Part shown: positions 25,156-46,084 of the stretch, piece by piece | How positions within the stretch are numbered: the stretch's first letter is position 1 | Layout: every line of letters begins with the position of its first letter | Source: Pseudosulfitobacter sp. DSM 107133 | GTDB taxonomy: Bacteria; Pseudomonadota; Alphaproteobacteria; Rhodobacterales; Rhodobacteraceae | Assembly: GCF_022788695.1 (NCBI RefSeq) | Contig: NZ_CP085161.1 | Coordinates: forward strand, 41,695-105,694 | DNA length: 64,000 nt | Reading direction: 5' to 3' | Made by a program: the position numbers and the translations under genes | The notes under the pieces: generated by a model | What the model was told of the DNA's origin: nothing | The model's input: the letters and a program-made list of their open reading frames with translations, nothing else | Databases searched by the model: none

Positions 25156-25171
25156 GCGAGATTCCCTTGTT

Positions 25172-27359: not shown

Positions 27360-27496
27360 ATGTTACATTCGGAGGCGCAGAGAAGAAATGTTTGAGCGGC
27401 GCGAGATCGCCGAAATGGGATGCCTGCCGAAACGCAGGTCACGGGATTATCCGTCTCGCAAACATTTTGGGCCGTTCAATCGTTCTTTCTGAAAAG

Positions 27497-27523
27497 GGCG
27501 GCACCGGCAATACCGGTGCCGCC
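27497..27523 (-). terminator. Terminator of the leftward catabolic operon
   Basis: The arms GGCGGCACCGG and CCGGTGCCGCC pair perfectly (11 bp) around the loop CAATA. On the minus strand the hairpin is followed by CTTTTC. It lies about 110 bases after the thiolase stop codon. Confidence 0.7.
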
Positions 27524-27633
27524 AGTTGGTCGTCCACAGGGAGGTTCAAGAGGACGAATTCTACAGCGAAATTTGAGGTCAGCCAAAAATCGCATAAGAG
27601 AACTTATGTTAGTTTTGTGGTTGTCGCGGCACC

Positions 27634-28833
27634 TCAGACAGCTTCGAGCGCGATTGCAATCCCCTGTCCCACGCCAATACACATGGTCGATAACGACTTT
27701 TCTCCAGGTTTGAGGTCCAGCATCGCTGAACCAGTGATGCGGGCACCTGACATGCCAAGCGGATGGCCGAGAGCAATAGCGCCGCCGTTCGGGTTCACGC
27801 GGGCGTCATCATCCGCGATCCCCAGGTGCCGTAGTGTGGCCAGACCCTGCGAAGCAAAGGCTTCGTTAAGTTCGATTACCGAGAAGTCTTCTTGTTTCAG
27901 TCCAAGTCGCGCCATCAGCTTTTCCGACGCCGGTGCCGGCCCGAAACCCATGATGCGCGGTGCGACGCCCGCGGTTGCGCCGCCCAAGACCCTTGCGATC
28001 GGTGTGAGGCCAAATTTTTTTGCGACGTCGCTGGTGGCAAGGATCAATGCTGCGGCACCATCGTTCACGCCCGAAGAATTCCCAGCGGTTACAGTGCCGT
28101 CCGCTTTTACGAAAGTTTTCAGTTGGGCGAGCGCTTCCAAAGTCGTACCCGCGCGAGGGTGTTCATCCTGTACGACGATCTTTGGCTCCCCCTTTCGCTG
28201 AGGAATCTCTACCGGGACAATTTCACGGGCCAAACGACCGTTCGCCATGGCATCTCTCGCCTTTCGCTGCGAACGCATGGCGAAGGCATCTTGGTCGGCG
28301 CGGTTGATGCTGAAGTCTTCCGCTACGTTTTCGGCCGTTTCAGGCATGCTGTCGACGCCGTATTGACTCTTCATCTGTTTATTGACGAAGCGCCAGCCGA
28401 TGGTGGTGTCTTCAGCAGAATTTTCGCGCGAGAATGCAGTTGTAGCTTTTGGCATCACAAACGGAGCACGAGACATGCTTTCCACACCGCCAGCAACAAT
28501 GAGATCGGCTTCTCCAGCTTTGATCGCGCGGGCGGCTGTGATTACGGCGTCCATACCCGATCCGCACAACCGGTTCATCGTCGTGCCAGGGACACAATCC
28601 GGAAATCCCGCGAGTAGCAGCGACATGCGTGCGACGTTGCGGTTGTCCTCGCCCGCCTGGTTGGCGCAGCCGAAAATCACTTCGTCAATGGCCGCTAGAT
28701 CTAGCTTCGGGTTTCGGCTGGCCAGGGCCCTGAGTGGGATTGCACCAAGATCGTCGGCTCGCACAGAAGAAAGCGCGCCGCCATAGCGACCAATTGGTGT
28801 GCGGATGTAATCGCAGATGTAGACGTTTGTCAT
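27634..28833 (-). CDS. Beta-ketoadipyl-CoA-type thiolase
   Basis: A 399-residue acetyl-CoA acyltransferase. Seen: nucleophile Cys in TTMNRLCGSGMDAV, ELNEAFASQ, the active-site His in GHPLGMSGARI and the second Cys in STMCIGVGQG. N-terminus and internal segments resemble PcaF/PaaJ thiolases, which split 3-oxoadipyl-CoA into succinyl-CoA and acetyl-CoA. That is the last step needed for adipyl-CoA from the cyclohexanol pathway encoded around it. It is the last gene of the leftward operon, 2 bases after the ETF alpha stop codon. Substrate is inferred from context. Confidence 0.88.
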   Translation of the reverse strand: MTNVYICDYIRTPIGRYGGALSSVRADDLGAIPLRALASRNPKLDLAAIDEVIFGCANQAGEDNRNVARMSLLLAGFPDCVPGTTMNRLCGSGMDAVITAARAIKAGEADLIVAGGVESMSRAPFVMPKATTAFSRENSAEDTTIGWRFVNKQMKSQYGVDSMPETAENVAEDFSINRADQDAFAMRSQRKARDAMANGRLAREIVPVEIPQRKGEPKIVVQDEHPRAGTTLEALAQLKTFVKADGTVTAGNSSGVNDGAAALILATSDVAKKFGLTPIARVLGGATAGVAPRIMGFGPAPASEKLMARLGLKQEDFSVIELNEAFASQGLATLRHLGIADDDARVNPNGGAIALGHPLGMSGARITGSAMLDLKPGEKSLSTMCIGVGQGIAIALEAV

Positions 28834-28835
28834 TC

Positions 28836-29756
28836 TTAGAGTGCCTTTGTCATATCCGGGACGGCGTCGAGCAGGTCTGCGACCAGGCCGTAGTCGGCGA
28901 CCTGGAAGATCTGGGCCTCTTCATCCTTGTTGATGGCGACGATGACCTTGCTGTCCTTCATGCCTGCAAGGTGTTGAATTGCCCCGGAAATCCCGACCGC
29001 GATGTACAGCTCGGGCGCCACGACCTTGCCGGTCTGGCCGACCTGCCAGTCGTTCGGTGCGAACCCGCTATCCACCGCCGCGCGCGAGGCGCCGACCGCC
29101 GCGCCCAGCTTGTCGGCCAGGCCCTCGATGATCGCGAAGTTCTCCTCGGAACCGACGCCGCGACCGCCCGAGACCACGATCTTGGCCGAGGTCAGTTCCG
29201 GACGATCCGACGCCGCGACCTTGTCCTCGACCCAGGCGCTCAGGCCCGCGTTGCCGGCCGCTGCGATGGCCTCGACGGCGGCCGAACCACCCTGGCCAGC
29301 CGCGTCGAAGGCGGTGGTGCGGACGGTCAGTACCTTCTTGGAATCGTTGGACTTTACCGTCTGAATCGCGTTGCCCGCGTAGATCGGGCGTTCGAACGTG
29401 GACCCGTCCACGATGGCGGTGACGTCCGACAAAACCATCACGTCCAGCAGCGCCGCGACGCGCGGCAGGATGTTTTTCGCGCTCGCCGTGGACGGAGCAA
29501 CGATATGTTCATAATTGCCTGCCAGGCTGACCACCAGATCGGCGACCGGCTCGGCCAGGCCGTTGGCATAGGCGGCGTCATCCGCCACCAGAACCTTTGC
29601 CACGCCGTCGATCTTCGACGCGGCCTCGCCTGCGGCAGCGGGGCCCGCAACCAGAACGGTCACATCGCCCAGCGATTTGGCAGCGGTCACCGCCTTGGCG
29701 GTGGCGTCCAGCGCCAGTGCACCACCGGCGATTTCTGCAAGGAGAAGAACAGCCAT
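28836..29756 (-). CDS. etfA: Electron transfer flavoprotein subunit alpha
   Basis: A 306-residue ETF alpha subunit. The C-terminal FAD domain is recognisable from SGGRGVGSEENF, AVGISGAIQHLAGM and the signature segment VIVAINKDEEAQIFQVADYG. ETF takes electrons from acyl-CoA dehydrogenases and passes them to ETF-quinone oxidoreductase, which is not encoded here and must be chromosomal. It overlaps ETF beta by 1 base. The gene appears richer in G and C than the adjacent SDR and monooxygenase genes, suggesting a separate source. Confidence 0.95.
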   Translation of the reverse strand: MAVLLLAEIAGGALALDATAKAVTAAKSLGDVTVLVAGPAAAGEAASKIDGVAKVLVADDAAYANGLAEPVADLVVSLAGNYEHIVAPSTASAKNILPRVAALLDVMVLSDVTAIVDGSTFERPIYAGNAIQTVKSNDSKKVLTVRTTAFDAAGQGGSAAVEAIAAAGNAGLSAWVEDKVAASDRPELTSAKIVVSGGRGVGSEENFAIIEGLADKLGAAVGASRAAVDSGFAPNDWQVGQTGKVVAPELYIAVGISGAIQHLAGMKDSKVIVAINKDEEAQIFQVADYGLVADLLDAVPDMTKAL

Positions 29757-30514
29757 TACACGATCCCCTTTTCTTTCAGCTTCGACACCAGCTCGTCGAC
29801 CGAGCCAACCATTTCCCCGGCCGAACGCGCGGCGGGCTCTGCCGTCTTGACGACGGTCAGGCGCGGCGTGACATCGACGCCGAAATCGGCGGCGGTCTTT
29901 TCGTCCAGCGGTTTCTTCTTGGCTTTCATGATGTTGGGCAGCGAGGCGTAGCGCGGCTCGTTCAGGCGCAGGTCGGCGGTGACGATCGCCGGCAGCTTCA
30001 CCTTGATGGTCTGCAGACCGCCGTCCACTTCGCGGGTCACGACGGCATGCTCGCCCTCGATCGCAACCTCAGAGGCATAGGTCGCCTGACCCCAGCCCAG
30101 CAGCGCCGCCAGCATCTGGCCGGTCGCGTTCATGTCGTTGTCGATCGCCTGTTTGCCCGCGATCACCAGGCCCGGCGCCTCGGCGTCGATCACGGCCTTT
30201 AGGATCTTGGCCACCGCCAGCGGCTCGATATCTTGGTGCACGTCGTCGGCGGCCACGACGAGGATCGCCCGGTCCGCGCCCATCGCCAGCGCCGTGCGCA
30301 GCGTTTCCTGCGCCTGTTTCACGCCGATCGACACGACGACAAGCTCGTCCGCCTTGCCCGCTTCCTTCAGACGGATCGCCTCTTCAACCGCAATCTCGTC
30401 GAACGGGTTCATCGACATCTTCACATTCGCGAGACCAACTCCGCTACCGTCCGCCTTAACGCGAACCTTCACGTTGTAATCAATTAGGTGTTTTATAGGT
30501 GCAATTATTTTCAT
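29756..30514 (-). CDS. etfB: Electron transfer flavoprotein subunit beta
   Basis: A 252-residue ETF beta subunit starting [20 protein letters not shown], with [19 protein letters not shown], the AMP-binding region and the signature segment [20 protein letters not shown] followed by [19 protein letters not shown]. It pairs with the alpha subunit downstream and should serve the acyl-CoA dehydrogenase at 40934-42094. Encoding a dedicated ETF pair inside a catabolic island is unusual, as most bacteria use the housekeeping copy. Confidence 0.95.
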
Positions 30515-30590
30515 TGGCGTTTATCGTCTTGGAAATTTGCAATGGCAGTAACGGCCCGGGTTCCAGGCCGTTACTTGGGATGTGTCTCTG

Positions 30591-31346
30591 TCAATTCGCA
30601 GTATAACCGCCATCTACTACAATCTCTGCTCCGTGAACGAACGATGACTCATCCGATGCGAGGAACAGGACCGCATTCGAAACCTCTTCAGGTTTGCTTG
30701 GCCGCTTGAGCAGCGTGGCCCCCAGAATTGCCTGCCGGGTCTCTTCGTCGGCGTGTAGCAGATCTTTTGTCATGGGAGTATCGATGACACCGGGATGGAT
30801 CGAATTGACACGTATGCCACTTTCGGCCAGGTCGACTGCGCAGGATTTGGTCAACATCCGTACGGCGCCTTTGGATCCAATGTAGGCTCCCGCCGAAGCG
30901 GCACCAACAATCCCATAGATTGAAGAAATATTGATAATTGATGCTTTTTCGGTCTCTTTCATCAATGGAACCGCGGCTCGGATACCGAGATAAACACCGC
31001 GTACATTGACGTTGATCGTCATGTCAAATTCGTCAGGCGAGGTTTCGTGGAGCGGCTTCAGAATGAGAATGCCAGCGTTGTTCACTAGCACATCAAGTCG
31101 ACCAGCACTTGATTGCACCGTGGAGATGACATTCTTCCAATCTTCTTCAAGCGTCACGTCATGCTGAATGAATTCCGCCTTCCCTCCGGCTCCAATGATA
31201 CCTTTTACTACGCTTTCACCCGCTTCCGTATCACGGTCGGTTACAAATACATGCGCGCCTTCACGTGCCAGCGTTTCACAATGGGCTTTTCCCATGCCCA
31301 TGGCGCCACCTGTTACCAGTGCGACTTTTCCGGATACCCGTCCCAT
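30591..31346 (-). CDS. Short-chain dehydrogenase, probable cyclohexanol dehydrogenase
   Basis: A 251-residue classical SDR: NAD-binding TGGAMGMGKAH near the N-terminus, NNAG, active-site Ser in IINISSIYG and the catalytic YxxxK (AYIGSKGAV). The Asp after the second strand (FVTDRD) favours NAD over NADP. The ATG at 31346 follows AGGAGAG and is preferred to the upstream ATG. Set directly before a cyclohexanone monooxygenase gene, its likely job is cyclohexanol to cyclohexanone (the ChnA step). SDR substrates cannot be read from sequence, so this is from context. Confidence 0.85.
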   Translation of the reverse strand: MGRVSGKVALVTGGAMGMGKAHCETLAREGAHVFVTDRDTEAGESVVKGIIGAGGKAEFIQHDVTLEEDWKNVISTVQSSAGRLDVLVNNAGILILKPLHETSPDEFDMTINVNVRGVYLGIRAAVPLMKETEKASIINISSIYGIVGAASAGAYIGSKGAVRMLTKSCAVDLAESGIRVNSIHPGVIDTPMTKDLLHADEETRQAILGATLLKRPSKPEEVSNAVLFLASDESSFVHGAEIVVDGGYTAN

Positions 31347-31418
31347 AGTTCTCTCCTGAGTGTTCATGAACAAATTTAATTGTTTCCGCCGGGTTTTCTT
31401 AATGCCCGACGGAATTCT

Positions 31419-33056
31419 TTACACCTTCTCGGCAGTGCGGTCGCGGATCAGGGATGTATAACCTTCCTCCTTAACCGCACTAATGGCATTGCGATAATTG
31501 CCAATCCCGGCCATGTAGAACATCACCGCATTCTTCTTTCCGGGGATATTTGCGCCGAAGATCCAGCTTTCAGCTTTGGGGAAGAGTGTCATGTCGGCGA
31601 TTTCACGGCAGGTGCCAACCCAAGCGTCGCGCGCCTCCACGGTTGGCTCCACACTTTGAACCCCCTCTTCTTCCATTGCGCAAATCGTGTCAGCGATCCA
31701 TTCAACTTGCGTCTCAATGCTGGGGGGCAGGTTAGTGAAGGGGCCATTAGGGCCAAGGATCATGAAGAAGTTAGGGAAGTCTACCTCCATCATGCCGAGG
31801 TAACCGAGTGGGCCTTCCTTCCAAGTGTCGCGCATGGTCACGCCTCCGCGTCCGCGGAGGTCCATTTTGACGTAATTGCCGTCGACCGCATCGAAACCAG
31901 TGGCAAAGATTACGATGTCAAGCTCATGCTCCTCGCCGCTTTCGAGACGAATGCCGTTCGGAGTGAACTCTGCGATCGGATCGGCCTTCACGTCGGCGAG
32001 GGTCACGTTGTCTCGGTTGTAGACCTCGTAATAGTTGTTTCCGCAAAGCGGGCGCTTGGCGTAAAGGTCCTTCGGCGTCAGTTTCTCTGCGACCTTGGGG
32101 TCCTTCACGATTTGCTTGATCTTGCCCTTGATGAAGTCAGCGGCCGCATCATTGGCCACTTGGCTGGTCGCAATATCGCAAAAGGTGCCAAACATGAAAT
32201 AGAAACCACCGCCGCGCTGCCAGGCGGCTTCGAAGACCCGCTCCCGTTCCTCGGGCGAGGCGGTTTCGGCGGGTTCGGCGCTTTCTTCGAAGCCGAAGGC
32301 CACAACAGAATTCTTCACTTGATTCCAGATATTATCGTAGTTCGCCTTTTGCTCGGCGATGGTAGCATCGTCTTGCGGGGTGTTCCCAATCGGCACGACA
32401 TATTGTGCAGAGCGCTGAAAAACAGTCAGGTGTTTTGCAATTGGTGCCGTTGCAGTGATAACCTGAACACCCGTCGAGCCGGTGCCGATAATGCCCACGC
32501 GTTTGTTGCTCAAGTCCACTCCCTCGGGCCAGGCACCTGTGTGTAAGATACGGCCTTTGAAATCATCGATGCCCTTGAATTTTGGAACATTCGTTGCGGA
32601 CAAGAGACCGAGGCCAGTGACAAGGTATTTTGCGGTAACTGTCTCACCACTATCAGTGATCACGTTCCAGAGACCGGTTTTTTCATTATAGTGCGCGCCA
32701 TCCACTTTGGTGTCGAACTTGTAGCTGCGTCGAAGATCGAGATGATCCGCTACCTCGTTCATGTATTCGAGGATCTCGGGCTGGGTCAGATACCGGGTTT
32801 TCCAGCGGCCTTTTCGAAGCAACTCTTTGTCAAAAGAATAGCGATAGACATAGCTTTCCGTGTCTGACAGCGCACCGGGATATCGGTTCCACCACCAGGT
32901 GCCGCCAACGTCACTGGCGCTGTCATAGCCCCGGACGTTCAGTCCCTGCTCGTTGCGAAGTTTGTGGACAGCGTAAAGCCCGCCGAAGCCCGCGCCAATG
33001 ACGACTGCGTCAAAATCCGCTCCGACCGTTTTAGTATTCTCAGTCTGAATGTTCAT
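31419..33056 (-). CDS. chnB: Cyclohexanone monooxygenase (Baeyer-Villiger, ChnB-like)
   Basis: A 545-residue class B flavoprotein monooxygenase that converts cyclohexanone to epsilon-caprolactone using NADPH and oxygen. Seen: FAD-binding VIGAGFGGLYAV near residue 20, the Baeyer-Villiger fingerprint FKGRILHTGAWP, the NADPH-binding IIGTGSTGVQV and late segments ILGPNGPFTNLPPSIE and SWIFGANIPGKK. These match the Acinetobacter enzyme closely as I recall it, and the length is normal. The ATG at 33056 follows CTGGGAGGAG; the open frame to 33254 is discounted. It lies between the lactone hydrolase and SDR genes, in pathway order. Confidence 0.92.
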   Translation of the reverse strand: MNIQTENTKTVGADFDAVVIGAGFGGLYAVHKLRNEQGLNVRGYDSASDVGGTWWWNRYPGALSDTESYVYRYSFDKELLRKGRWKTRYLTQPEILEYMNEVADHLDLRRSYKFDTKVDGAHYNEKTGLWNVITDSGETVTAKYLVTGLGLLSATNVPKFKGIDDFKGRILHTGAWPEGVDLSNKRVGIIGTGSTGVQVITATAPIAKHLTVFQRSAQYVVPIGNTPQDDATIAEQKANYDNIWNQVKNSVVAFGFEESAEPAETASPEERERVFEAAWQRGGGFYFMFGTFCDIATSQVANDAAADFIKGKIKQIVKDPKVAEKLTPKDLYAKRPLCGNNYYEVYNRDNVTLADVKADPIAEFTPNGIRLESGEEHELDIVIFATGFDAVDGNYVKMDLRGRGGVTMRDTWKEGPLGYLGMMEVDFPNFFMILGPNGPFTNLPPSIETQVEWIADTICAMEEEGVQSVEPTVEARDAWVGTCREIADMTLFPKAESWIFGANIPGKKNAVMFYMAGIGNYRNAISAVKEEGYTSLIRDRTAEKV

Positions 33057-33171
33057 ATCACTCCTCCCAGAGTAAGACCGCTCCGCCCCGCAGATTGCGG
33101 GTGAGATGCTAGATGAATGTTTCGTAGGGGTTTGTCTCGCACCGCACCGCAATGCAGTGCGAGTACAGGTC

Positions 33172-34074
33172 TCAGAGGGCCCGATACCATGCGGCGATGC
33201 GACCAAGTTCCTCGTTTGCCTCGGGCGCGCGTCCCGAAAGCGCGGGAAAGACATGCTGCATGCCTTCGACGATAGACAGGGTCACGTTTACGCCCTGTGC
33301 CTTGGCCTTTTCGTGCAACCGTTCGGCATCGCTCTTAAGCGTCTCGGCCCCTCCGGCATTGATATAGAGCGGCGGGTAACCGGTGAAATCGTTCTCCAGC
33401 GGGTTGGCCAACGGATTAAGCGGATCCGTGCCTTCACCGAGGAACATCCCCGCCATCGCTTCGAGGATCGGTTTGCCGACTAGCGCATCGGTTTCCGCGT
33501 TGGTTTCCAGTGTTTCCCCGCGCATCGCCATGTCGAGCCAGGGCGAATAGGCGATGACCGCTCCGGGCAGTGGCAACCCAAGTTCGCGTAACTTCAGCAC
33601 GCTGGCGATGGCAAGATTGCCGCCAGCACTGTCGCCAGCCGTCAGAATATTTCTTGCCTTGAAACCCTTATCCAGCAGCGCTTTGTATGCGGCTACTGCA
33701 TCTTCGATCTGCGCCGGAAATGGGTGCTCGGGTGCGCGCCGATAGTGCAGGATCACCGACGTAACCCCAAGCACCTTAGCGAGGTGCCCTGCCATTTTTC
33801 GATGACTATCGGCTGAGCCGACGGCAAAGCCGCCACCATGAGTGTAAACAATTACACGCGAGGTATCTGCCCCGGCTGGTAGGGCCCAGATAGCCTCAAC
33901 TCCTCCGACATGATCGCTTTTGTAGCTAACGTTTTCCGGCTCTAGTGCGGGCTGCCCCCATTCATCGAACATGCTGCGCAGGTTCGCGATCGTCAGGTCT
34001 GGGTTCTCGACCATCTGATCGGTCCAATTCTGATAAAGCGCCCGCAGCGTATCGGCTTCTCTACTGATTTCCAT
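33172..34074 (-). CDS. chnC: HSL-family esterase, probable caprolactone hydrolase (ChnC-like)
   Basis: A 300-residue alpha/beta hydrolase. The oxyanion motif HGGGFAVGS, the nucleophile elbow GDSAGGNLA and a late His in GMQHVFPAL mark the hormone-sensitive-lipase-like family, to which caprolactone hydrolases belong. Expected reaction: epsilon-caprolactone to 6-hydroxyhexanoate. The ATG at 34074 follows TTGGGAGG. It is the first gene of the leftward operon that runs through chnB, SDR and ETF to the thiolase. The symbol rests on context with the monooxygenase. Confidence 0.85.
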   Translation of the reverse strand: MEISREADTLRALYQNWTDQMVENPDLTIANLRSMFDEWGQPALEPENVSYKSDHVGGVEAIWALPAGADTSRVIVYTHGGGFAVGSADSHRKMAGHLAKVLGVTSVILHYRRAPEHPFPAQIEDAVAAYKALLDKGFKARNILTAGDSAGGNLAIASVLKLRELGLPLPGAVIAYSPWLDMAMRGETLETNAETDALVGKPILEAMAGMFLGEGTDPLNPLANPLENDFTGYPPLYINAGGAETLKSDAERLHEKAKAQGVNVTLSIVEGMQHVFPALSGRAPEANEELGRIAAWYRAL

Positions 34075-34361
34075 GTTTATCCTCCCAAGCATAACATTTG
34101 GCAAAGCCACCAACTGACGTCGCCAATCTCGAAGACGTCAAACGGTCAACGGCATACGCCAATTATCTCAGAGTAAGGGCGAAAAATGCGCCATGTATTG
34201 AACAATCCTGCTTTGGAAATAGTATGATCGTGCTCAGCCTGTCGTGAGGCAGATATGCCCGTTACTAGGCTCTGTTGATGGCGTGGATACCCCCTCCCGA
34301 CGGCATCGCAATGTGCCACTATGATGAGCGTTAAAAGCCATCACAGAAGGAAGGAGCATCT
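34075..34361. promoter_or_regulatory. Presumed promoter region of the chnC-thiolase operon
   Basis: This gap must hold the promoter for the leftward catabolic operon, between about 34075 and 34260. The right part, from about 34270 (GGATACCCCCTCCCG onward), looks like the left end of the decayed IS110 copy. No clear palindrome or -35/-10 pair stood out. The AraC regulator at 44522 is a likely activator here (inference). Confidence 0.4.
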
Positions 34362-35389
34362 ATGTCCGAAATTAAAATTATCGGTGTCGACTTGGCAAAG
34401 CGCGTTATCCAGTTGCATGGTGCGTACAATGATGGGTCAGTCGCGTTTCGCAAAAAGCTTTCACGAGGCCAGTTTCTCGCGTTCGTGGCACAGCAACCCA
34501 AATGCATGATCGCCATGGAGGCGTGGCCACGGCGTATGGCTGGGGCCGCGAATTTGAGAAGCTGGGGTGCGACGTGCGGTTGATACCGCCGGTCTATGTG
34601 AAGCCGTTCGTCAAACGCCAGAAGAATGATGCGACCGATGCAGAGGCCATCTTGGAGGCTGCATTGCGTCCAACCATGCGCTTTTTCGCAGTGAAGACGG
34701 AAGATCAGCAGGCCCGTGCCATGCTGTTTCGCACGCGGCAGATGTTTGTCGGCCAGCGCCCCCAGATGATCAACGCTTTACGCGGCCACCTCGCCGAACA
34801 CGGATTGGTCGCGGCCCGCGGGCCTGCCCATCTCAAGCGACTCGCGGACGCAATCGCAGGTGATGACACCGCGCTGCATGCTGAGGTTCGTGACCTCGGC
34901 CGGATGTATCTGGGGCAGATTGAGGGGCTGAATACGCGTGTTGCAGAGCTTGACGCGAAGATGCGATGTGCCGCCAAGAAAGCCGACTTGGTGCGCCGAA
35001 CACAAACCATGCCGGGCGTGGTTCCTGTCACGGCGCTTGCGATCGAGACATTTGCCCGTGACCTGGCCACCTTCCGGCGCGGGTGCGATTTTGCCGCCTG
35101 GCTTGGGCTTGTGCCGAAGCAGCACTCGACGGGCGGCAAAGCCCGGCTCGGGAAGACCTCGAAGATGCGACAGCGCGACTCCGGACACTCTTGGTCTCTG
35201 GCGCTATGGCTGTCCTCCAGGCTGTCGAGCGGTTTGACACACCGAATAATGGCTGGCTGAAACGCCTACTAACCCGCAAGCCGCGCATGGGTCGCCGCGA
35301 TTGCGCTGGCCAACAAGATGGCGCGTGGCCTCTGGGCCATCATAATGAAACAAGAGGATTACCGGAATCCGGTGGCGGCGATGGCATAG
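34362..35389 (+). pseudogene. IS110-family transposase, frameshifted
   Basis: The frame opens with MSEIKIIGVDLAKRVIQLHG after a good AAGGAAGG site, which is the DEDD-type start of IS110 transposases. It then breaks near 34523 (one base missing in the MEAC region), again near 35177-35190 (GQRDIRR region scrambled) and near 35295 (one extra G). The continuation shows KRQKNDATDAEAI, MPGVVPVTALAIETF, FAAWLGLVPKQHSTGGK and the final PRMVAAIALANK-type region, ending at TAG 35387-35389. At least three frameshifts mean it is inactive. Confidence 0.88.
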
Positions 35390-35713
35390 CGAAGACGGCA
35401 TGCCACGACGTCCCGGTAAGTTGGGAGTGTGAGGAGGTCACTGAAAAGTAAGGGCAAAGGATCGATCAGATCCGGGTCAGAGAAAGCAGCATTTGTGCAG
35501 GAGCCACCGAGCTCGGTTTGTTGATATGCCTCTGGTCCGCGCATCGCCATACCGGCCCGCGGTTACATCAGCGCCGCACACAGAGGCCTGATACATGACC
35601 GCACCCGATCACACGCTCGCGCCGTTCAAAAAATCACTTGCACCAATGGGGGCATGCATGCACAAATCCCGTGTCGGACTCATCTTATGAATCCAGCGTG
35701 GTAGCTGAGGTGC

Positions 35714-38501: not shown

Positions 38502-39952
38502 AGCACTGGCGCTCGATTGCGCGAGATAAATTTGGTATTGAGATAGCCTTCGAAGGTTTCTGTCCCGCCTTCAGTCCCATAGCCGCTGTCTCTTACGCCG
38601 CCAAACGGAGTCTCGGGCAGAGCCAGGCCGAACTGGTTGATGCTTACCATACCTGCCTGCAAACCCGCAGCTGCTTTATCTGCACGCTCCAACGAATTGG
38701 TAAAGACATAGGACGCCAGCCCGAAGGGTAGCCCGTTGGCCCGCGACAGTCCGTCCTCTATTTCACGAAAAGACGAGACGACAGCAATCGGGCCGAAGGG
38801 TTCTTCGCGCATCAAGTCGATGTCGTCGTTGGGCGTATCGACGACTGTCGGGGCATAGAAGTTACCATGATTCCCAACCCTTTTGCCTCCCGTCAACACC
38901 CGTGCACCGTTTTCGCGGGCATCCTCGACGAGCTTTTCCATCGCATTCACGCGTCCGCGATGACACAATGGCCCCATCTGTGTGCCCTCGGTTAAACCAT
39001 CGCCCACCTTTACGCTCTCAAATGCTGAAACTAGCTCGGACAGAAATCGGTCGTAGATGCCTTGTTGTACGTAAAACCGGGTTGGGGCGATGCACACCTG
39101 GCCTGCATTGCGCAGCTTGTTGCCCGCCAAGGCGCGCGCCGCGGCCGTGGCATCGGCGTCGTCGAACACCAATACGGGCGCGTGACCGCCGAGTTCCATC
39201 GTCGCCCGCTTCATGTGGCGGCCAGCCAATTCTGCCAGATGCTTGCCCACCTCGACCGAACCGGTGAAGGTGATCTTGCGCACCTCGGGGCGCGCAATAA
39301 GAGTTTCCGAAATGAAGGCCGCATTACCCCAGACAAGGTTCAGACAGCCTTCGGGCAAGCCTGCATCCAGCAGATAGCGCGCAATTGCCATGCAGCCCGC
39401 CGGAGCCTCTGCCGGGGCTTTCAAGATCATCGTGCAACCTGACGCAAGCGCCGCCGCGACCTTGCGTACCGCTTGGCTCAGCGGAAAATTCCAAGGCGTG
39501 ATGGCAAGGCAGACGCCTATCGGTTCGCGCACGACAAGCTGCTGTACCCCCGGGCTGCGCGATGGAATGATGCGCCCATAAATGCGCCGACATTCCTCGG
39601 CGTGCCAGTCGACGTGGTCAGCTGAGGCGCGGACCTCAGCCAAGGCCTCAGCCAGCGGCTTGCCTTCATCGAGAGTGATCCAGCCAGCGATCAGTCTGTC
39701 ATTTTGGCGCAGCAGGTCGGCAAACCGTCGCAAAATTGCACTTCGTTCCATGGGAGAGCTGTTTTTCCATCGGCGAAAAGCTGATTCGGCCGAGTGAACC
39801 GCATGGTCCAGATCTGCGGCGCTAGCCTGCGGAATCTGTCCGATAGTTTGCCCGTTTGCAGGGTTTATGACTGCACGATCCTCCGGCGTGGGAGAAGCGA
39901 TCCAGTCCCGTCCGATGAGGTGCTGGATGGTCGGATAATTCATTTCTTTCAT
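38498..39952 (-). CDS. Aldehyde dehydrogenase, probable 6-oxohexanoate dehydrogenase
   Basis: A 484-residue NAD(P)-dependent aldehyde dehydrogenase of the succinate-semialdehyde dehydrogenase type. Seen: ITPWNFPLSQAVRK, general base Glu in MELGGHAPV, nucleophile Cys in NAGQVCIAPTRF and the end segment EPFGPIAVV. Context gives 6-oxohexanoate to adipate (the ChnE step). The ATG at 39952 follows GAGGGC; an in-frame ATG three codons later is possible, and the open frame to 40051 runs over the operator. It is the first gene of a two-gene leftward operon. Confidence 0.88.
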   Translation of the reverse strand: MKEMNYPTIQHLIGRDWIASPTPEDRAVINPANGQTIGQIPQASAADLDHAVHSAESAFRRWKNSSPMERSAILRRFADLLRQNDRLIAGWITLDEGKPLAEALAEVRASADHVDWHAEECRRIYGRIIPSRSPGVQQLVVREPIGVCLAITPWNFPLSQAVRKVAAALASGCTMILKAPAEAPAGCMAIARYLLDAGLPEGCLNLVWGNAAFISETLIARPEVRKITFTGSVEVGKHLAELAGRHMKRATMELGGHAPVLVFDDADATAAARALAGNKLRNAGQVCIAPTRFYVQQGIYDRFLSELVSAFESVKVGDGLTEGTQMGPLCHRGRVNAMEKLVEDARENGARVLTGGKRVGNHGNFYAPTVVDTPNDDIDLMREEPFGPIAVVSSFREIEDGLSRANGLPFGLASYVFTNSLERADKAAAGLQAGMVSINQFGLALPETPFGGVRDSGYGTEGGTETFEGYLNTKFISRNRAPVL

Positions 39953-40023
39953 GGCGTTATGCCCTCGCTCAGTTGTGTCATCCGCAGGATCCGGCACGAA
40001 GGGGACCAGATGGACGACTTTAG

Positions 40024-40042
40024 TTTTCCGCATAGCGGAAAA
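40024..40042. promoter_or_regulatory. Palindromic operator, IclR-type
   Basis: TTTTCCGC-ATA-GCGGAAAA is a perfect 8-bp inverted repeat with a 3-base centre. It lies 72 bases upstream of the aldehyde dehydrogenase start and 82 bases upstream of the divergent iclR-family gene. Fifteen-base palindromes of this form are typical IclR-family targets, so the neighbour probably binds here. Confidence 0.65.
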
Positions 40043-40123
40043 GTTTACCACAGTATTGACGCGGACGTTATCGATCGTTTAGATGTGTTTCAAGACGCAT
40101 AATTCTTCCCGAGGAGGGATGTC

Positions 40124-40918
40124 GTGAGACCAAGGAAAGACCGCACCAAGGACGCCGAGAGACAGGACCGCGATTTTGTCACGGCGTTGGCGCGCGGCTT
40201 GGAGCTGTTGCGGGCCTTTCGGCGGGAAGGGGAAGCTCTGGGGAATGGTGAGTTGGCCGAGCGCACTGGCCTGAGCAGATCGACGGTCTCAAGGCTGGCC
40301 TATACACTGAACAAGCTGGAATACCTCAGCTACGATCCGGATACAGCACGCTATCGACTGGCCCCTCCAGTGCTTTCGCTGGGTTTCTCCTGCCTTGCAG
40401 GGATTCCGCTGCGGCAACTCGCAAAGCCCTTTATGCAGGAATTAGCCGATTACACAGGTATGCCGGCGGCCATGGCCAGTCGTGACCGACTATCGATGGT
40501 CTATCTAGAGCGGTGCAAGGGCACCAACGCCGTCACGCTGGCGATTGAGGTTGGTGCCCATATTAAACTGGCCACTACCGCGGTTGGTCGCGCCTGCATA
40601 GCGGCACACGGCCCGGATGAGCAGGCCAGAATTCTGGCCCTTGTGGAGGAACATGAGGGTGACAACTGGCCGAATGTGCAGCCCGGAATCGAAGCAGCTA
40701 TCGAAGACTACCAACAGTACGGTTATTGCACGTCCTTCACGGAGTGGAAGCGTGATGTGAACGCAGTAGCAGTGCCCTTCGTGCCGACGGACGGCTCACC
40801 CATCATTGCCTTCAACTGCGGCGGTCCTTCGCAAACCCTTACGCGCGATTGGATCGAAAGCGACGTCGCGCACCGCCTTGTCGATCTTGTCCGCCGCGTT
40901 GCAGCGGTCGCACCCTGA
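40124..40918 (+). CDS. IclR-family transcriptional regulator
   Basis: A 264-residue regulator with a GTG start after GAGGAGGGA. An N-terminal winged helix (NGELAERTGLSRSTVSRLAY) precedes the effector-binding domain (TGMPAAMASRDRLSMVYLER, WKRDVNAVAVPFVP). IclR proteins often control aromatic and dicarboxylate degradation and sense a pathway acid or CoA ester; adipate or an adipyl intermediate would fit. It is divergent from the ALDH/hydratase operon across a strong palindrome and precedes the acyl-CoA dehydrogenase by 15 bases, so it may control both directions. Confidence 0.9.
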   Translation: MRPRKDRTKDAERQDRDFVTALARGLELLRAFRREGEALGNGELAERTGLSRSTVSRLAYTLNKLEYLSYDPDTARYRLAPPVLSLGFSCLAGIPLRQLAKPFMQELADYTGMPAAMASRDRLSMVYLERCKGTNAVTLAIEVGAHIKLATTAVGRACIAAHGPDEQARILALVEEHEGDNWPNVQPGIEAAIEDYQQYGYCTSFTEWKRDVNAVAVPFVPTDGSPIIAFNCGGPSQTLTRDWIESDVAHRLVDLVRRVAAVAP

Positions 40919-40933
40919 ACAATAGAGAGCATA

Positions 40934-42094
40934 ATGGCCCTTGATACAGATACCCTTTCCCAGTTTCTCGACGCGCTCGACCGCTTCGTGAAAGAGCGAC
41001 TAATCCCTTACGAGGATCGCGTCGCCGATGAAGATGTGATTCCGCCTATGCTGGTCGATGAAATCCGCACGATGGGCCTTTTCGGCATGTCGATCCCGGA
41101 GGATTTCGGCGGGCTTGGCTTGTCGATGATAGAGGAAGTGCAAGCCGCTTTCGTTCTTGGCCAGGCTTCGCCTGCGTTCCGGTCGCTAGTTGGCACAAAC
41201 AACGGGATCGGCTCGCAGGGAATCATCATCGATGGAACCGACGAGCAGAAGGCGAAGTATCTACCAGCTCTCGCCTCCGGAGATATGATCGCATCCTTCG
41301 CCCTAACCGAGCCAGATGCTGGTTCGGATGCTGGCGGTCTGCGCACCACTGCGCGGCGTGATGGAAACGATTTCCTACTGAACGGCACGAAGCGCTACAT
41401 TACCAATGCGCCGCGTGCCGATCTATTCACGGTTTTTGCCCGGACCAGTCCAGAGGTGAAAGGTTCTGCCGGCGTAAGCGCTTTTCTCGTCGAGGCAGGG
41501 ACGCCGGGCATAACGCTTGGCCAGCCTGACAGGAAGATGGGGCAGAAGGGTTCGCACACATGCGACGTCATCCTTGACAATGTCCGCGTGCCTGCCTCGA
41601 ACATCATCGGCGGGCCGGACCGTCTGAACAAGGGCTTCAAAACGGCAATGAAAGTCCTTGATCGGGGCCGACTGCATATTTCTGCCGTCTGTGTGGGCGC
41701 CGCCGAACGGCTGATCCGTGACAGCCTATCCTATGCGATTGAACGCAAACAATTCGGTGAACCCATCGCTGAAAAGCAACTGATCCAAGCCATGCTGGCT
41801 GACAGTCGCGCCGAGGCCTTCGCAGCGCGTTGCATGATCGAAGAAACAGCACGCCGCAAGGACGCTGGTCAGAACGTGTCGACTGATGCTGCCTGCTGCA
41901 AGATGTTTGCCAGTGAGATGGTAGGTCGAGTGGCCGATCGCGCAGTGCAAATCCACGGCGGTGCAGGATACATGGCCGAATATGCGGTCGAGCGCTTCTA
42001 TCGCGATGTGCGTCTCTTCCGCATCTACGAGGGGACAACCCAGATTCAGCAAATACTGATCGCGCGGAATATGATCCGCACTGCAGCAGCTTAA
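40934..42094 (+). CDS. Acyl-CoA dehydrogenase, probable adipyl-CoA dehydrogenase
   Basis: A 386-residue flavoprotein with the family segments IASFALTEPDAGSDAGG, YITNAPRADLFTVFAR, KMGQKGSHTCDVIL and the FAD/ETF-side end RLFRIYEGTTQIQQ. The Glu of that last motif is the catalytic base of short/medium-chain types. Expected reaction: adipyl-CoA to 2,3-dehydroadipyl-CoA, electrons to the ETF pair at 28836-30514. It starts a rightward series with the alcohol dehydrogenase and CoA-transferase. Substrate from context. Confidence 0.9.
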   Translation: MALDTDTLSQFLDALDRFVKERLIPYEDRVADEDVIPPMLVDEIRTMGLFGMSIPEDFGGLGLSMIEEVQAAFVLGQASPAFRSLVGTNNGIGSQGIIIDGTDEQKAKYLPALASGDMIASFALTEPDAGSDAGGLRTTARRDGNDFLLNGTKRYITNAPRADLFTVFARTSPEVKGSAGVSAFLVEAGTPGITLGQPDRKMGQKGSHTCDVILDNVRVPASNIIGGPDRLNKGFKTAMKVLDRGRLHISAVCVGAAERLIRDSLSYAIERKQFGEPIAEKQLIQAMLADSRAEAFAARCMIEETARRKDAGQNVSTDAACCKMFASEMVGRVADRAVQIHGGAGYMAEYAVERFYRDVRLFRIYEGTTQIQQILIARNMIRTAAA

Positions 42095-42112
42095 CAGGAG
42101 CGAAGACAAACT

Positions 42113-43267
42113 ATGGACTTCAATTTCCTTTCCACCCCGAGGATCGTCTGCGAGAGCGGTGGGCTTGGCCGGATCGGCAGCCTGATGCAAGATTTGTCTT
42201 GCACCCGTGCGCTGGTCGTGACGGACCCGGGCATATTGGCCTGTGGTTTTGCGGACGAGGCAGCCGCCTCACTTAGGGCTGCTGGCATCGAGGTTGAGAT
42301 TTTTCATAAAGTCAAAGCGGACCCCCCGATCGCTGTCGTCGAGGCCGCGGTAGAGGTCGCGCGGGCCTTTGGTGCTGACGGAATCATCGGACTTGGCGGC
42401 GGCAGTTCACTGGACACTGCCAAGGTCATCGCAGCGGCGGTAGCCAACGATCAACCGATTACGGACATGATCGGGATCAATCAGGTCACCGATAAACGCT
42501 TGCCACTGATTCAGGTGCCAACCACGGCAGGGACCGGATCAGAGGTAACATGGGTGTCCGTGCTGACTTCGGAAAGCCACGAAAAAAAAGCGGTATATGC
42601 ACCGCAGCTTCTGCCTGACGTTGCCTTGCTAGATGCAAAGCTAACATTGGGAATGCCTCGTCACATCACAGCGGCCACGGCGTTAGACGCAATGGTTCAC
42701 GCCATTGAGGCAGTAACCAGTCGCACCAGAAAGAATCCCATTTCCGATGGAATGGCGGACAAAGCGCTGGTGCTTCTCGGTCAGAACTTACCAATCGTCA
42801 TGGAAACGCCTTCGGACCTGTCAGCGCGAGAGGCCATGCTGTTGGGGGCGACACTGGCTGGGATGGCCTTCATTAATGCCAGCGTGGGGGCGATTCATGC
42901 CTTGTCATACCCACTGGGAACAGGTTTCAAGGTTCCTCACGGGCACGCAAACGCTCTGGTCGCAGGACCAGTGATGAGGTTCAACATGCCCGTTGCAGAA
43001 GCTGAATATGCTCGTCTATCGCGGTTACTACTGCCCTCGCGGCCTTTTAACTCTGATGCGGCTGCGGCCCATGGCCTGATCGACGAGATGGAACGGATGC
43101 TAGTCGAAAGCGGACTTGAGTCTCGACTTTCTGGTGTCGGAGTGACCGAGGCAGCCATTCCCGGAATGGCTAATGAGGTCGTGACCGGTATCACGCGATT
43201 GCTGGAGACCAACCCGCGCGACATGACAGCCGAAGATGTGTCGCGCCTCTATCAGGAGGCGCTTTGA
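42113..43267 (+). CDS. Iron-containing alcohol dehydrogenase, probable 6-hydroxyhexanoate dehydrogenase
   Basis: A 384-residue type III alcohol dehydrogenase. Seen: the nucleotide-binding GLGGGSSLDTAKVIA, PTTAGTGSEVTWVSVL, and metal ligands in ITAATALDAMVHAIE, GAIHALSYPLG and VPHGHANAL. AGGAG lies upstream of the ATG. In the Acinetobacter pathway the 6-hydroxyhexanoate step uses a zinc enzyme, so this would be a non-homologous replacement. It overlaps the next gene (TGATG). The substrate is inferred from pathway completeness; no other alcohol dehydrogenase is in the island apart from the SDR. Confidence 0.85.
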   Translation: MDFNFLSTPRIVCESGGLGRIGSLMQDLSCTRALVVTDPGILACGFADEAAASLRAAGIEVEIFHKVKADPPIAVVEAAVEVARAFGADGIIGLGGGSSLDTAKVIAAAVANDQPITDMIGINQVTDKRLPLIQVPTTAGTGSEVTWVSVLTSESHEKKAVYAPQLLPDVALLDAKLTLGMPRHITAATALDAMVHAIEAVTSRTRKNPISDGMADKALVLLGQNLPIVMETPSDLSAREAMLLGATLAGMAFINASVGAIHALSYPLGTGFKVPHGHANALVAGPVMRFNMPVAEAEYARLSRLLLPSRPFNSDAAAAHGLIDEMERMLVESGLESRLSGVGVTEAAIPGMANEVVTGITRLLETNPRDMTAEDVSRLYQEAL

Positions 43268-44469
43268 TGGCTGGCTCATTGGACGGGATCAAGGTGGTCG
43301 ACCTCAGCCGCGTGCTGGGCGGGCCTTACTGCACCCAAATGCTTGCGGATCATGGCGCTGAGGTCATCAAGGTGGAGCCGCCTCTGGGCGACGAGACCCG
43401 CAGTTGGGGCCCGCCTTTCAATGATGAACTCAGCGCCTATTTCTCTGGCGCCAACCGCAACAAGCGGTCCATCGCTATCGATCTGCAGCAACCGGAAGGG
43501 CGCGACCTGATATTGCGGTTTCTTCAGGATGCAGATGTTTTAGTTCACAATTTTAAGTCTGGTACTCTTGAAAAATGGGGGCTTGGTTATGATGATGTTC
43601 TCAGGGCACGTTTTCCTAGACTGGTACTCTGCCACGTGACTGGATTTGGTTCCGATGGCCCACTTGGCGGTTTTCCCGGCTATGACGCCGTGGTACAAGC
43701 TATGACGGGCCTCATGAGCATCAACGGCAATCCCTCCGAAGGCCCGACACGCATGGGTACGCCCATCGTGGACATCGGCACCGGTCTGATCGCCTGTAAC
43801 GCTATTCTCGCCGCACTTTTGGAACGGGGCCGGTCCGGATTGGGCCAAGCCATCGAAGTGCCGCTATATGATTGCGCGATCAGCATGATGCATCCCCAAG
43901 CGGCTAATTCCCTCATGTCCGGACAGATACCAATGGCGACCGGCAATGGGCATCCAAATATCGTACCATACGACATGTTCGAAACAAGTAATGGCAAACT
44001 CTATCTGGCTATCGGTAACAATGGTCAGTTCGCAAAACTCTGTGACGTGCTTGGCCTACCTGAGGTGCCCTGCGATCCACGATTTGCCGACAATGCCGCG
44101 CGTCTTGCGCATCGGTCAGAGATGACAGAGGTCTTGTCAGAGTGCCTGGTGCAACATGACGCCTTCAAACTTGAGCCGGTGCTTTTGAAAGCTGGGATTC
44201 CCGCCGGAGTCGTTCGGAATGTGAATGAAGCGTTGGAGCATCCACACACCCGACATCGCGGAATGGTGGTATCAGTTGGCACCTACCGCGGCACCGGCGT
44301 GCCAGCACGCTTGTCGCGTACCCCCGGAGCGGTTCGCGCGGCACCGCCTCGCTTCGGGCAGCATAGTAGGCAGTTGCTTAGCGAGGCTGGACTGACAGAA
44401 GCTGAAATCGATAGATTGACTCAAGCGGATATCGTTCGAGAAGAACCGCGGATGCGCGAGACGACCTAA
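43267..44469 (+). CDS. CaiB/BaiF class III CoA-transferase
   Basis: A 400-residue family III CoA-transferase: KVVDLSRVLGGPYCTQMLAD at the N-terminus, HGAEVIKVEPPLGDETR, FGSDGPLGGFPGYDAVVQAM and the Asp expected to carry CoA in VDIGTGLIACNA or near NPPYDAV-like segments. It should form adipyl-CoA from adipate using succinyl-CoA or another donor. The ATG at 43267 overlaps the preceding TGA; a TTG one codon upstream is possible. It closes the gap between adipate and beta-oxidation in this island. Confidence 0.88.
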   Translation: MAGSLDGIKVVDLSRVLGGPYCTQMLADHGAEVIKVEPPLGDETRSWGPPFNDELSAYFSGANRNKRSIAIDLQQPEGRDLILRFLQDADVLVHNFKSGTLEKWGLGYDDVLRARFPRLVLCHVTGFGSDGPLGGFPGYDAVVQAMTGLMSINGNPSEGPTRMGTPIVDIGTGLIACNAILAALLERGRSGLGQAIEVPLYDCAISMMHPQAANSLMSGQIPMATGNGHPNIVPYDMFETSNGKLYLAIGNNGQFAKLCDVLGLPEVPCDPRFADNAARLAHRSEMTEVLSECLVQHDAFKLEPVLLKAGIPAGVVRNVNEALEHPHTRHRGMVVSVGTYRGTGVPARLSRTPGAVRAAPPRFGQHSRQLLSEAGLTEAEIDRLTQADIVREEPRMRETT

Positions 44470-44521
44470 GCCGAAATTTCAGCTCAAGCGGACGATCGTG
44501 AAAAAGTTCAGGGAGGCCAAG

Positions 44522-45403
44522 ATGGAAAGATTGCTCATATCACCGGACCGGATACCCGAATGGATTCCCGGCACGACTACGTTGGACAGTTCCGGGTGCA
44601 ACTGGAACGGCATTACCCTGAAGGGCTATCGTTATGAGCGACAAGACGCGGCAATTCCCCCCATGCGCGACTATATGATTGTTGCATATGATGGCGCGCC
44701 AACCACTATGCGCCGCACGAGTGGCGGCCCATGGCAAAGCGCGCGCGTAGAGAAAGGTAGGATTTCCTTGCTCACGCGTGCAGAGGAATCCACTTGGAGT
44801 TGGTCCGAGCCTATCACGGTTAGACACGTCTATCTCAATCACAGCGAACTCGAAAACACGGCCCTTTCGGTCTTTGATCGTGACCCGAAGTCCATTGAGA
44901 TCAATGATTGGCTATCTGCGAAGGACCCCTGTATCCTGAACTGCATCCAATTGCTAGAGAATGAGCTAAAGAACGGTGGAATCGGCCAGAGATTGATCAT
45001 CGACGCCCTGCGCAGCCAGATCGCCGTTCACCTTCTGCGTCAGTACGCCAAGGTCTCTTTGACCAGCGACGCAAACTCGAACTTCAGCCCTGCTCAAAGG
45101 CAGAGAATCATCGATCTCGTTGAAAGCTGCTTAGGTGAAAACCTCAGTCTGGAAGACATGGCCGCATCTATCGGTTTCAGCCAGTTTCACTTTTCGCGTC
45201 AGTTCAAGGCGGAGTTTGGGTTGGCACCGTATGCATATGTTTTGCGCAAGCGAATATCGAAGGCCCAGGAGATGCTGAGAAAGGGTAATGCCCCCCTGAA
45301 AGTGGTCGCGCTTGACTGCGGTTTTGCAGATCAGAGTCATTTTAGTCGAACTTTTCGAAAAATGACAGGCGCGACCCCCGCCGAATTCCGGCGCATGGCA
45401 TAA
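44522..45403 (+). CDS. AraC-family regulator (ChnR-like)
   Basis: A 293-residue regulator with a C-terminal double HTH (LSLEDMAASIGFSQFHFSRQ, VVALDCGFADQSHFSRTFRK, GATPAEFRRMA). The N-terminal 180 residues are a sensor domain starting MERLLISPDRIPEWIPG. AGGGAGG lies 9 bases before the ATG at 44522 and decides this start over the GTG at 44498. In Acinetobacter an AraC/XylS protein (ChnR) activates the cyclohexanone monooxygenase operon when ring ketone is present; this gene is the natural counterpart. It could activate the chnC operon at 34075-34260. Confidence 0.88.
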   Translation: MERLLISPDRIPEWIPGTTTLDSSGCNWNGITLKGYRYERQDAAIPPMRDYMIVAYDGAPTTMRRTSGGPWQSARVEKGRISLLTRAEESTWSWSEPITVRHVYLNHSELENTALSVFDRDPKSIEINDWLSAKDPCILNCIQLLENELKNGGIGQRLIIDALRSQIAVHLLRQYAKVSLTSDANSNFSPAQRQRIIDLVESCLGENLSLEDMAASIGFSQFHFSRQFKAEFGLAPYAYVLRKRISKAQEMLRKGNAPLKVVALDCGFADQSHFSRTFRKMTGATPAEFRRMA

Positions 45404-45476
45404 TGACCGGAAAACTATTCCTTCCTATCGCTGTCACGCACCAGAGACAAAGAAATGTTGAGCCCGTAACGCTGCA

Positions 45477-45935
45477 ATGAATGTACCAGAAACAGAATTT
45501 AAACCACGATTTGCCTTCGAACGCAGGATTTTCTTTGGCGACTGTGACCAGCTGGGAATCGCCTTTACTGGCCGGATTACGAATTTCGCGCTGGAAGCGA
45601 TCGAGACTTTCTGGGACGATTTGCTTTCAGGCCGGGGCTGGCTTTTTCTACTCACGGAAAGAAACACGGCCATGCCTTTTGTCTCTATGGACCTACAATT
45701 CCATGCGCCGGTGAAAGCAGGCGCGAACCTAGCATGCGAGGTCTATGTGGTCCATGTCGGGGAAAGTTCAGTTGGTCTAAAAGTTGTCGGCCGTCAGCAT
45801 GACTTGATTTGCTTCGAATGCGAAACGAAGTCAGTTTTCCGAGATGCTTCAACATTTGGTAAAGTCAAAATTGAAAGCTCAATTCGGCAGATTTTGCTCG
45901 CGGAAGTGGGTTCGGAAAATCAAACAGTGAGCTAG
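45477..45935 (+). CDS. Hotdog-fold thioesterase (4-hydroxybenzoyl-CoA type)
   Basis: A 152-residue hotdog protein: FERRIFFGDCDQLGIAFTGR corresponds to the 4HBT start with the catalytic Asp, followed by the long helix (ITNFALEAIETFWDD) and PFVSMDLQFHAPVKAG. It would hydrolyse an acyl-CoA, perhaps releasing adipate or 6-hydroxyhexanoate from CoA esters that build up. The ribosome-binding site is weak. It is the last gene of the catabolic island, 74 bases after the AraC gene. Confidence 0.8.
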   Translation: MNVPETEFKPRFAFERRIFFGDCDQLGIAFTGRITNFALEAIETFWDDLLSGRGWLFLLTERNTAMPFVSMDLQFHAPVKAGANLACEVYVVHVGESSVGLKVVGRQHDLICFECETKSVFRDASTFGKVKIESSIRQILLAEVGSENQTVS

Positions 45936-46014
45936 GCCTGTAGGCTTTGGAGACAGCAAAGCCTGTGCAAAACGATCTCATGTAAGGGAACACAAGAAAA
46001 AGCCAGAGAAAGGG

Positions 46015-46033
46015 AAGCCCGGGTGCCGGGCTT
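46015..46033 (+). promoter_or_regulatory. Hairpin in the leader of the parB-like gene
   Basis: AAGCCCGG-GTG-CCGGGCTT is a perfect 8-bp stem with a 3-base loop, 52 bases before the ATG. It is followed by GAAAGGATAGAGAGAGG, not by T, so a terminator is less likely than a leader element. Confidence 0.45.
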
Positions 46034-46084
46034 GAAAGGATAGAGAGAGGCTCTTCCGGGTCCGGCGTGACAAGGACCCTGACC

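Follow-up and report, generated by a model that had tools for sequence, protein, structure and literature searches.

The 64,000-nucleotide stretch analyzed here (hereafter, the window) makes up the final 64 kb of a 105,694-base contig (C8; NZ_CP085161.1) of Pseudosulfitobacter sp. DSM 107133. Between positions 27634 and 45935, it contains an 18-kb cluster of genes predicted to convert cyclohexanol to central metabolites. We consider it likely that this cluster is exchangeable cargo, a cassette borne by a RepABC, VirB-type plasmid of marine Rhodobacterales, with the route, regulation, and movement proposed below. Judged from its sequence, the cassette is real, well bounded, and probably functional, and the plasmid has the parts for its own transfer. 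This reading draws on direct observations of gene content, borders, identity contrasts, and conserved elements, and from these we infer the substrates, regulation, and transfer of the cassette. Pfam scans of the main open reading frames (ORFs) of the window identified 14 genes, from a thiolase to a 4HBT thioesterase, and two insertion sequence (IS) remnants lie among them.

27634–28833, minus strand: 3-oxoadipyl-CoA thiolase, PcaF type (Pfam Thiolase_N/C; TIGR02430, 669.7 bits)
28836–29756, minus strand: electron transfer flavoprotein (ETF) subunit EtfA (PF00766, PF01012)
29756–30514, minus strand: EtfB (PF01012)
30591–31346, minus strand: short-chain dehydrogenase/reductase (SDR), predicted cyclohexanol dehydrogenase (PF13561/PF00106; motifs YxxxK and TGxxxGxG)
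31419–33056, minus strand: cyclohexanone monooxygenase (CHMO), a type I Baeyer–Villiger monooxygenase (BVMO), 545 aa (PDB ranking; fingerprint FKGRILHTGAWP)
33172–34074, minus strand: HSL-type alpha/beta hydrolase, predicted caprolactone hydrolase (PF07859; motifs HGGG and GDSAG)
34279–35658, plus strand: IS110-family insertion, transposase fragment at 34502–35260 (PF02371/PF01548; stretch missing from relatives L104, L105, L018, and L020)
35659–36391, plus strand: IS5-family remnant, transposase fragment at 35884–36270 (PF13737/PF01609; comparison with relatives)
36450–38501, minus strand: enoyl-CoA hydratase/3-hydroxyacyl-CoA dehydrogenase fusion (PF00378, PF02737, PF00725; HFFSP and GGGNMG)
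38498–39952, minus strand: aldehyde dehydrogenase (ALDH), predicted 6-oxohexanoate dehydrogenase (PF00171)
40124–40918, plus strand: IclR-family regulator (PF01614, PF09339)
40934–42094, plus strand: acyl-CoA dehydrogenase (ACAD), predicted adipyl-CoA dehydrogenase (PF00441, PF02770, PF02771)
42113–43267, plus strand: iron-type alcohol dehydrogenase (Fe-ADH), predicted 6-hydroxyhexanoate dehydrogenase (PF00465, PF25137)
43264–44469, plus strand: family III CoA-transferase, predicted succinyl-CoA:adipate CoA-transferase (PF02515)
44522–45403, plus strand: AraC-family regulator, ChnR-like (PF12833)
45477–45935, plus strand: 4HBT thioesterase (PF03061, weak match at 4.8e−5; no NCBIfam match)

The translations of all 14 genes were free of internal stops, and the E-values of the family matches reached 6e−159 (ALDH); the strength of the matches and the recurrence of the block in other records are far beyond chance. 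An initial annotation of this DNA had proposed a gene for each step from cyclohexanol to central metabolism, with CoA activation, and two regulators. By Pfam, all of the step genes are present, open, and in place, the regulators belong to the IclR and AraC families, and the sequence supports the route, an activation by CoA transfer, and a mobile carrier. The IS110 and IS5 fragments, which sit between the hydrolase and hydratase/dehydrogenase genes inside the leftward row, had gone unmentioned. In the proposed route, the SDR would oxidize cyclohexanol, CHMO would produce caprolactone, and the hydrolase would open it; Fe-ADH and ALDH would then lead to adipate, which the CoA-transferase would convert to adipyl-CoA. 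ACAD with EtfAB, followed by the fused hydratase/dehydrogenase and the PcaF-type thiolase, would yield acetyl-CoA and succinyl-CoA.

When PDB sequences were ranked with phmmer against the longer ORF of the monooxygenase, the best seven were all named CHMO (744.5–723.1 bits), followed by unnamed flavin monooxygenases (≤701 bits), steroid monooxygenase (494 bits), and phenylacetone monooxygenase (470 bits). A motif search also found the type I BVMO fingerprint FKGRILHTGAWP. The protein scored above the cut-off of no NCBIfam model; the ranking and the fingerprint point to membership in the CHMO clade. The thiolase exceeded the PcaF equivalog cut-off of 597 bits, indicating a C6 dicarboxylate, and is accordingly the predicted 3-oxoadipyl-CoA thiolase of an adipate β-oxidation pathway. 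As judged from families and motifs, a putative HSL-type hydrolase and an SDR adjoin CHMO; the SDR cleared only a broad NCBIfam subfamily named glucose 1-dehydrogenase (253 versus 215 bits), and the PDB entries closest to the hydrolase were esterases such as EstD11. No specific NCBIfam model was cleared by Fe-ADH, ALDH, or ACAD, the top model for ALDH being that of succinate-semialdehyde dehydrogenase, with a score under its cut-off. The fusion protein scored 450 bits against the FadB model (cut-off 870), and the best NCBIfam model for the CoA-transferase was the succinate-glutarate CoA-transferase NF052585, at 360.7 bits under a cut-off of 750; its PDB neighbors include succinate-hydroxymethylglutarate CoA-transferase. 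Cyclopentanol or another ring size was discounted in view of the PcaF-type thiolase and the rank of the monooxygenase among CHMOs. The real substrate might instead be some other compound degraded by way of caprolactone or adipate (for example, a polyester or caprolactone monomer, a cyclohexanone with substituents, or adipate as such), with cyclohexanol activity incidental, and such a reading would suit the breadth of the SDR and hydrolase families, the promiscuity of CHMOs, and the fact that neither a transporter nor a ring hydroxylase fixes the natural source. We nevertheless regard it as unlikely: the thiolase is of PcaF type, the entire chain closes at C6, and the CHMO, hydrolase, and SDR genes are also neighbors in distant loci (L115 and L118).

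The cassette, read as a cyclohexanol route, still depends on its host. The ETF-quinone oxidoreductase had a single match in the genome, located on C1, a contig that is presumably the chromosome. The identified cassette genes include none for a transporter or an outer-membrane channel, whereas clusters elsewhere (L034, L029, and L040) do have one. The cassette had been called “self-contained,” which is slightly too strong, because electrons from EtfAB need the oxidoreductase encoded on C1 and no transporter is among the genes identified. No cyclohexane hydroxylase was found among the scanned ORFs, and the route begins at the alcohol or the ketone. A duplicate chromosomal route was rejected on the lone CHMO match in the genome (E-value of 0.001 or better); a stretch 67% identical to the thiolase and several short matches to ETF do occur elsewhere in it.

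Positions 27000–47000 were covered to at least 80% in 11 of 72,556 plasmid records; these 11 belong to Sulfitobacter, Mameliella, Ruegeria, and Yoonia. Nine of these 11 plasmids, two cassette-free relatives, and one Labrenzia plasmid were compared with the window in 500-base bins, and the borders of the slot proved sharp, at about 27.6 and 45.94 kb. The right border adjoins a backbone gene.

46067–48256, plus strand: ParB-like backbone gene, right border of the slot (PF02195; border mapping)

The left identity step falls near 27.58–27.63 kb. Several plasmids combine a cassette identity of 99–100% with about 89% on the VirB side. The two S. faviae plasmids and Sulfitobacter D7 were 99.4–100% identical to the window per bin across the cassette after a first bin at 98%, versus 81–95% on the VirB side; in Ruegeria THAF33, the VirB side was 82–98% identical, the left half of the cassette 97–100%, and the right half 94.6–100%. 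The VirB side was also close in Sulfitobacter LC.270 (97.3% overall) and Mameliella (93.3%). At the right border, Ruegeria 43209 and Yoonia were 99.5% identical to the window over 45300–45935 and 86.6% identical over 45999–46400, with an IS3 between the two stretches in Ruegeria 43209 that is absent in Yoonia. Within the cassette, the identity of these two was uneven, most bins of Ruegeria 43209 lying at 90–99.6% and the thiolase gene of Yoonia at no more than 74%. Both flanks also occur in Roseovarius THAF9 and Paracoccus albus (L099 and L100), where the slot between them is annotated with other metabolic genes (in P. albus, with transposase and recombinase genes as well). No repeats of at least 20 bases were found at the borders, and the two border stretches had none above 11 bases in common. 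A composite transposon or a transposon-borne island was rejected for lack of terminal repeats, and because no border repeats were found, the simplest reading is homologous recombination within the flanking DNA; whole cassettes would be exchanged between backbones through these conserved flanks.

The description of the carrier as a “transfer element” was right as anatomy, with the following parts predicted in the window.

3968–7812, plus strand: relaxase (3968–5884) and TraG/VirD4 coupling protein (5890–7812) (PF03432, PF02534)
15700–26900, minus strand: VirB-type conjugation region (DNA alignment with VirB loci annotated in plasmid records)

The VirB region (15.7–26.9 kb) aligned over at least 80% in 32 of the 72,556 plasmid records, and the listed matches fall on annotated VirB genes. 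The beginning of C8 aligns with the repA, repB, and repC genes found in plasmid records; the VirB and repABC calls both come from DNA similarity to records with annotation. Taken together, the relaxase, the coupling protein, the VirB region, and repABC are consistent with a conjugative RepABC plasmid.

The spread of the cassette was followed in a genome scan, in which 80 of 184 confirmed CHMO relatives were kept and 10-kb flanks were fetched (L numbers denote the loci and records compared here). CHMO was at least 97% identical at the protein level in 15 of the 80, representing 12 genera by record title. VirB4 was on the fetched stretch in 8 of these 15 loci; of the other seven, L014, L018, L019, and L021 are clipped by contig ends, and L010, L011, and L024 have the full flank without VirB4, so the left neighborhood of the cassette is not uniform. 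The similarly named records R12_2, R13_0, and R14_0 may belong to one study and hence could share contamination. Among 393 other genomes sampled from the family (394 including the source genome, which matches as well), CHMO was matched at an E-value of 1e−150 or better in one at 97% and in one at 52%. Carriers came from a kelp culture, a cold-water coral, a copepod, a vent plume, and plastic surfaces, so that pollution is not required by the records. All 13 core genes were found in L023, L028, L030, L031, and L033 of the 80 loci and in the Labrenzia plasmid L001, under identity thresholds set by the analyst and with other loci often cut by the 10-kb flank. The core order is that of the window in L001, L028, L030, L031, and L033, and the thiolase is relocated in L023. 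In the Mameliella alba cassette (L102, 40771–41943), the Fe-ADH gene is unannotated though the DNA is at least 99.8% identical, reflecting either a small disruption or an annotation gap. L115 (1–15584) is a Pseudosulfitobacter conjugative plasmid with a CHMO cluster at 69%, beside citryl-CoA lyase and hydroxymethylglutaryl-CoA lyase genes; this cluster maybe serves a branched or substituted ring.

Two conserved elements were found in the cassette.

34195–34235, minus strand: tandem direct repeat (22 bp), predicted AraC/ChnR-type operator for the hydrolase–CHMO–SDR transcript (alignment, matrix score)
40026–40040, strand not assigned: palindrome TTCCGC-N3-GCGGAA, predicted IclR operator (between iclR and aldh)

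The tandem element stands 120 bp ahead of the hydrolase gene, between that gene and the IS remnants. When the stretches upstream of the hydrolase gene were aligned for the window and 18 loci, the 41-base element was readable in 18 of 19 (L037, part of which is masked, was dropped) as two half-sites, AGCA-GA...CAAT, mostly with a 22-base period and 112–129 bases 5′ of the gene. A matrix built from 10 loci without the window scored 34.0 bits at 34195–34235, compared with a maximum of 11.9 bits in 20 mononucleotide-shuffled windows, and in leave-one-out trials, the top match stood before the hydrolase gene in nine of the 10 training loci. Three of 18 held-out loci scored above 20 bits (L115, L116, and L119); in L115 and L116 (Pseudomonas plasmid), the element is in front of the hydrolase gene, and L119 is a close relative of the training locus L029. 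A pattern fitted to the window copy, which it matches exactly by construction, had one match in the window and none in 100 shuffles. Tandem sites with such spacing are usual for AraC/XylS proteins. The window regulator belongs to the AraC family by Pfam and may be of the ChnR type. ChnR of Acinetobacter is a cyclohexanone-induced AraC/XylS protein, according to passages of PMC4225500. An AraC/ChnR-type activator may turn on hydrolase–CHMO–SDR–EtfBA–thiolase via the tandem element, and IclR may act at the divergent iclR/aldh promoter. The palindrome there is the sole perfect copy in the window and occurred, as judged by eye, in all 12 aligned stretches with at most one mismatch (seven perfect and five with one mismatch; some are close relatives); in the upper-only clusters described below, it lies between iclR and the hydrolase gene. 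Its count alone is unremarkable (two window matches with at most one mismatch versus 0.54 expected). Both IS remnants (34279–36391) are upstream of the tandem element and would thus not be expected to silence the CHMO transcript. That these insertions, by parting the hydratase/dehydrogenase and ALDH genes from the CHMO genes, left a decaying relic whose route no longer works as one is very improbable in spite of the S. alexandrii and L019 copies, which are shortened or rearranged, given that 14 of 14 window genes are open, that near-identical CHMO genes occur in the 12 genera, and that the tandem element is conserved on the gene side of the remnants.

Several observations weigh against the reading of the cluster as a functional, mobile cyclohexanol cassette. 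Gene function, phenotype, and conjugation are predicted from sequence. The SDR, hydrolase, Fe-ADH, ALDH, ACAD, and CoA-transferase match broad families only, and their substrates are therefore deduced from context. Only 3 of 44 records with a related VirB region were called conjugative by MOB-suite, with 37 called mobilizable and 4 non-mobilizable, and L010, L011, and L024 carry the cassette without VirB4. The S. alexandrii copy has a shortened CoA-transferase, lacks AraC and the thioesterase, and lies beside an IS3, and in L019, AraC and the thioesterase follow the SDR, with EtfBA and the thiolase not on the fetched stretch. The tandem element failed the leave-one-out trial in L040 and scored below 12 bits in 15 of the 18 held-out loci (10 actinobacterial and 4 proteobacterial), and the IS remnants might alter expression even so.

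Other cargo is present on these plasmids. A Type III CBASS-like set (NucC, CD-NTase, two HORMA proteins, and TRIP13) occupies window positions 9361–12867, between traG and the VirB region; the matching place holds HamA/HamB (Hachiman) in L102 and TIR/ThsB-like proteins in L009, and in L099, a SAVED protein lies ahead of virB11. These varied genes suggest a second, defense slot before the VirB region. A protein with a Tle1-like phospholipase domain (7831–9264) adjoins traG, and the L102 annotation has a DUF2235 protein in the corresponding position. Three tyrosine recombinase genes (53790–57414), which presumably form a recombinase-in-trio element, split a strawberry-notch-type gene (51324–54884 and 57375–59621) for which relatives such as L101 have a single annotated gene. 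Beyond the window, the same contig has a stretch of ~14.7 kb (L113, 5302–20000) that includes genes for a sugar ABC transporter and for Mu/Tni-type transposases; it is 100% identical to an S. faviae plasmid and constitutes a second metabolic cargo.

More tentatively, and with somewhat less than even confidence, these roseobacter plasmids could be viewed as two-slot vehicles, with a catabolic slot between a small helix-turn-helix gene and parB and a defense slot before the VirB region. Homologous recombination would swap whole cassettes between backbones resident in one cell, and the cyclohexanol cassette would represent a recent sweep through at least 12 genera, expressible because each module has its own operator. 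This extension is weakened by L010, L011, and L024, because they have the full flank without VirB4. If the cassette is the exchangeable unit proposed here, then a complete alicyclic degradation route moves as a single unit among marine bacteria, its clean borders make the exchange mechanism testable, and a catabolic trait is tied to a plasmid family that also bears defense genes. The cassette would furthermore supply predicted operators and a 6-hydroxyhexanoate dehydrogenase candidate of non-homologous type.

Among known systems, the chn cluster of Acinetobacter NCIMB 9871 and Rhodococcus (cyclohexanol to adipate) has CHMO, an HSL-type lactone hydrolase, an SDR, an ALDH, and, at family level, an AraC-type regulator in common with the window. 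ChnD, its 6-hydroxyhexanoate dehydrogenase, is a zinc-type alcohol dehydrogenase. In the window, by Pfam, a member of the Fe-ADH family stands in place of this zinc-type enzyme and may work like ChnD without homology. The window differs further in its IclR regulator and in a complete adipate β-oxidation arm with its own EtfAB. ChnC and ChnE are covered in passages of PMC9477822. Upper-only clusters (Stakelama, Sphingomonas, and Actibacterium; L034, L038, L029, and L119) have, like the window, ACAD–IclR divergent from hydrolase–CHMO–SDR (observed in L029, L034, L035, and L038), with 72–84% protein identity to the window in L029, L034, and L038. Downstream, they encode a channel-type protein (Pfam; L034 and L029), a zinc-type alcohol dehydrogenase (Pfam; L034), and another ALDH, where the window has Fe-ADH; the enzyme downstream in L119 is annotated only as alcohol dehydrogenase. 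Their fetched stretches have other acyl-CoA genes nearby but lack a window-like hydratase/dehydrogenase fusion, EtfBA, and thiolase. Relative to these clusters, the window has aldh and the fusion gene between iclR and the hydrolase gene, EtfBA–thiolase after the SDR, and Fe-ADH–CoA-transferase after ACAD. The adipate pathway dcaAKIJP of Acinetobacter baylyi, named in passages of PMC12543098, resembles the window, when compared by description, in being a dedicated gene set for adipate β-oxidation; the window differs in its single family III CoA-transferase and fused hydratase/dehydrogenase. The Labrenzia/Roseibium plasmid L001 has the 13 core genes in the same order with no IS between them, at 68–89% protein identity, but on a different plasmid (MOBQ) and with no thioesterase match. 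Identical plasmids in distant Roseobacteraceae and the cross-genus transfer of Dinoroseobacter shibae plasmids are described in passages of PMC13386836, so wide plasmid spread in the family is not new; those passages mention no cyclohexanol cassette or swappable cargo slot. The strings “cyclohexan” and “adipate” are absent from the main texts of PMC9025767 and PMC13386836, and a title-level search of the open-licence literature returned no such Sulfitobacter/Roseobacter plasmid cassette, a negative confined to that literature. The enzymes belong to known kinds; what sets this cassette apart is their combination, the slot that holds them, and the predicted operators.

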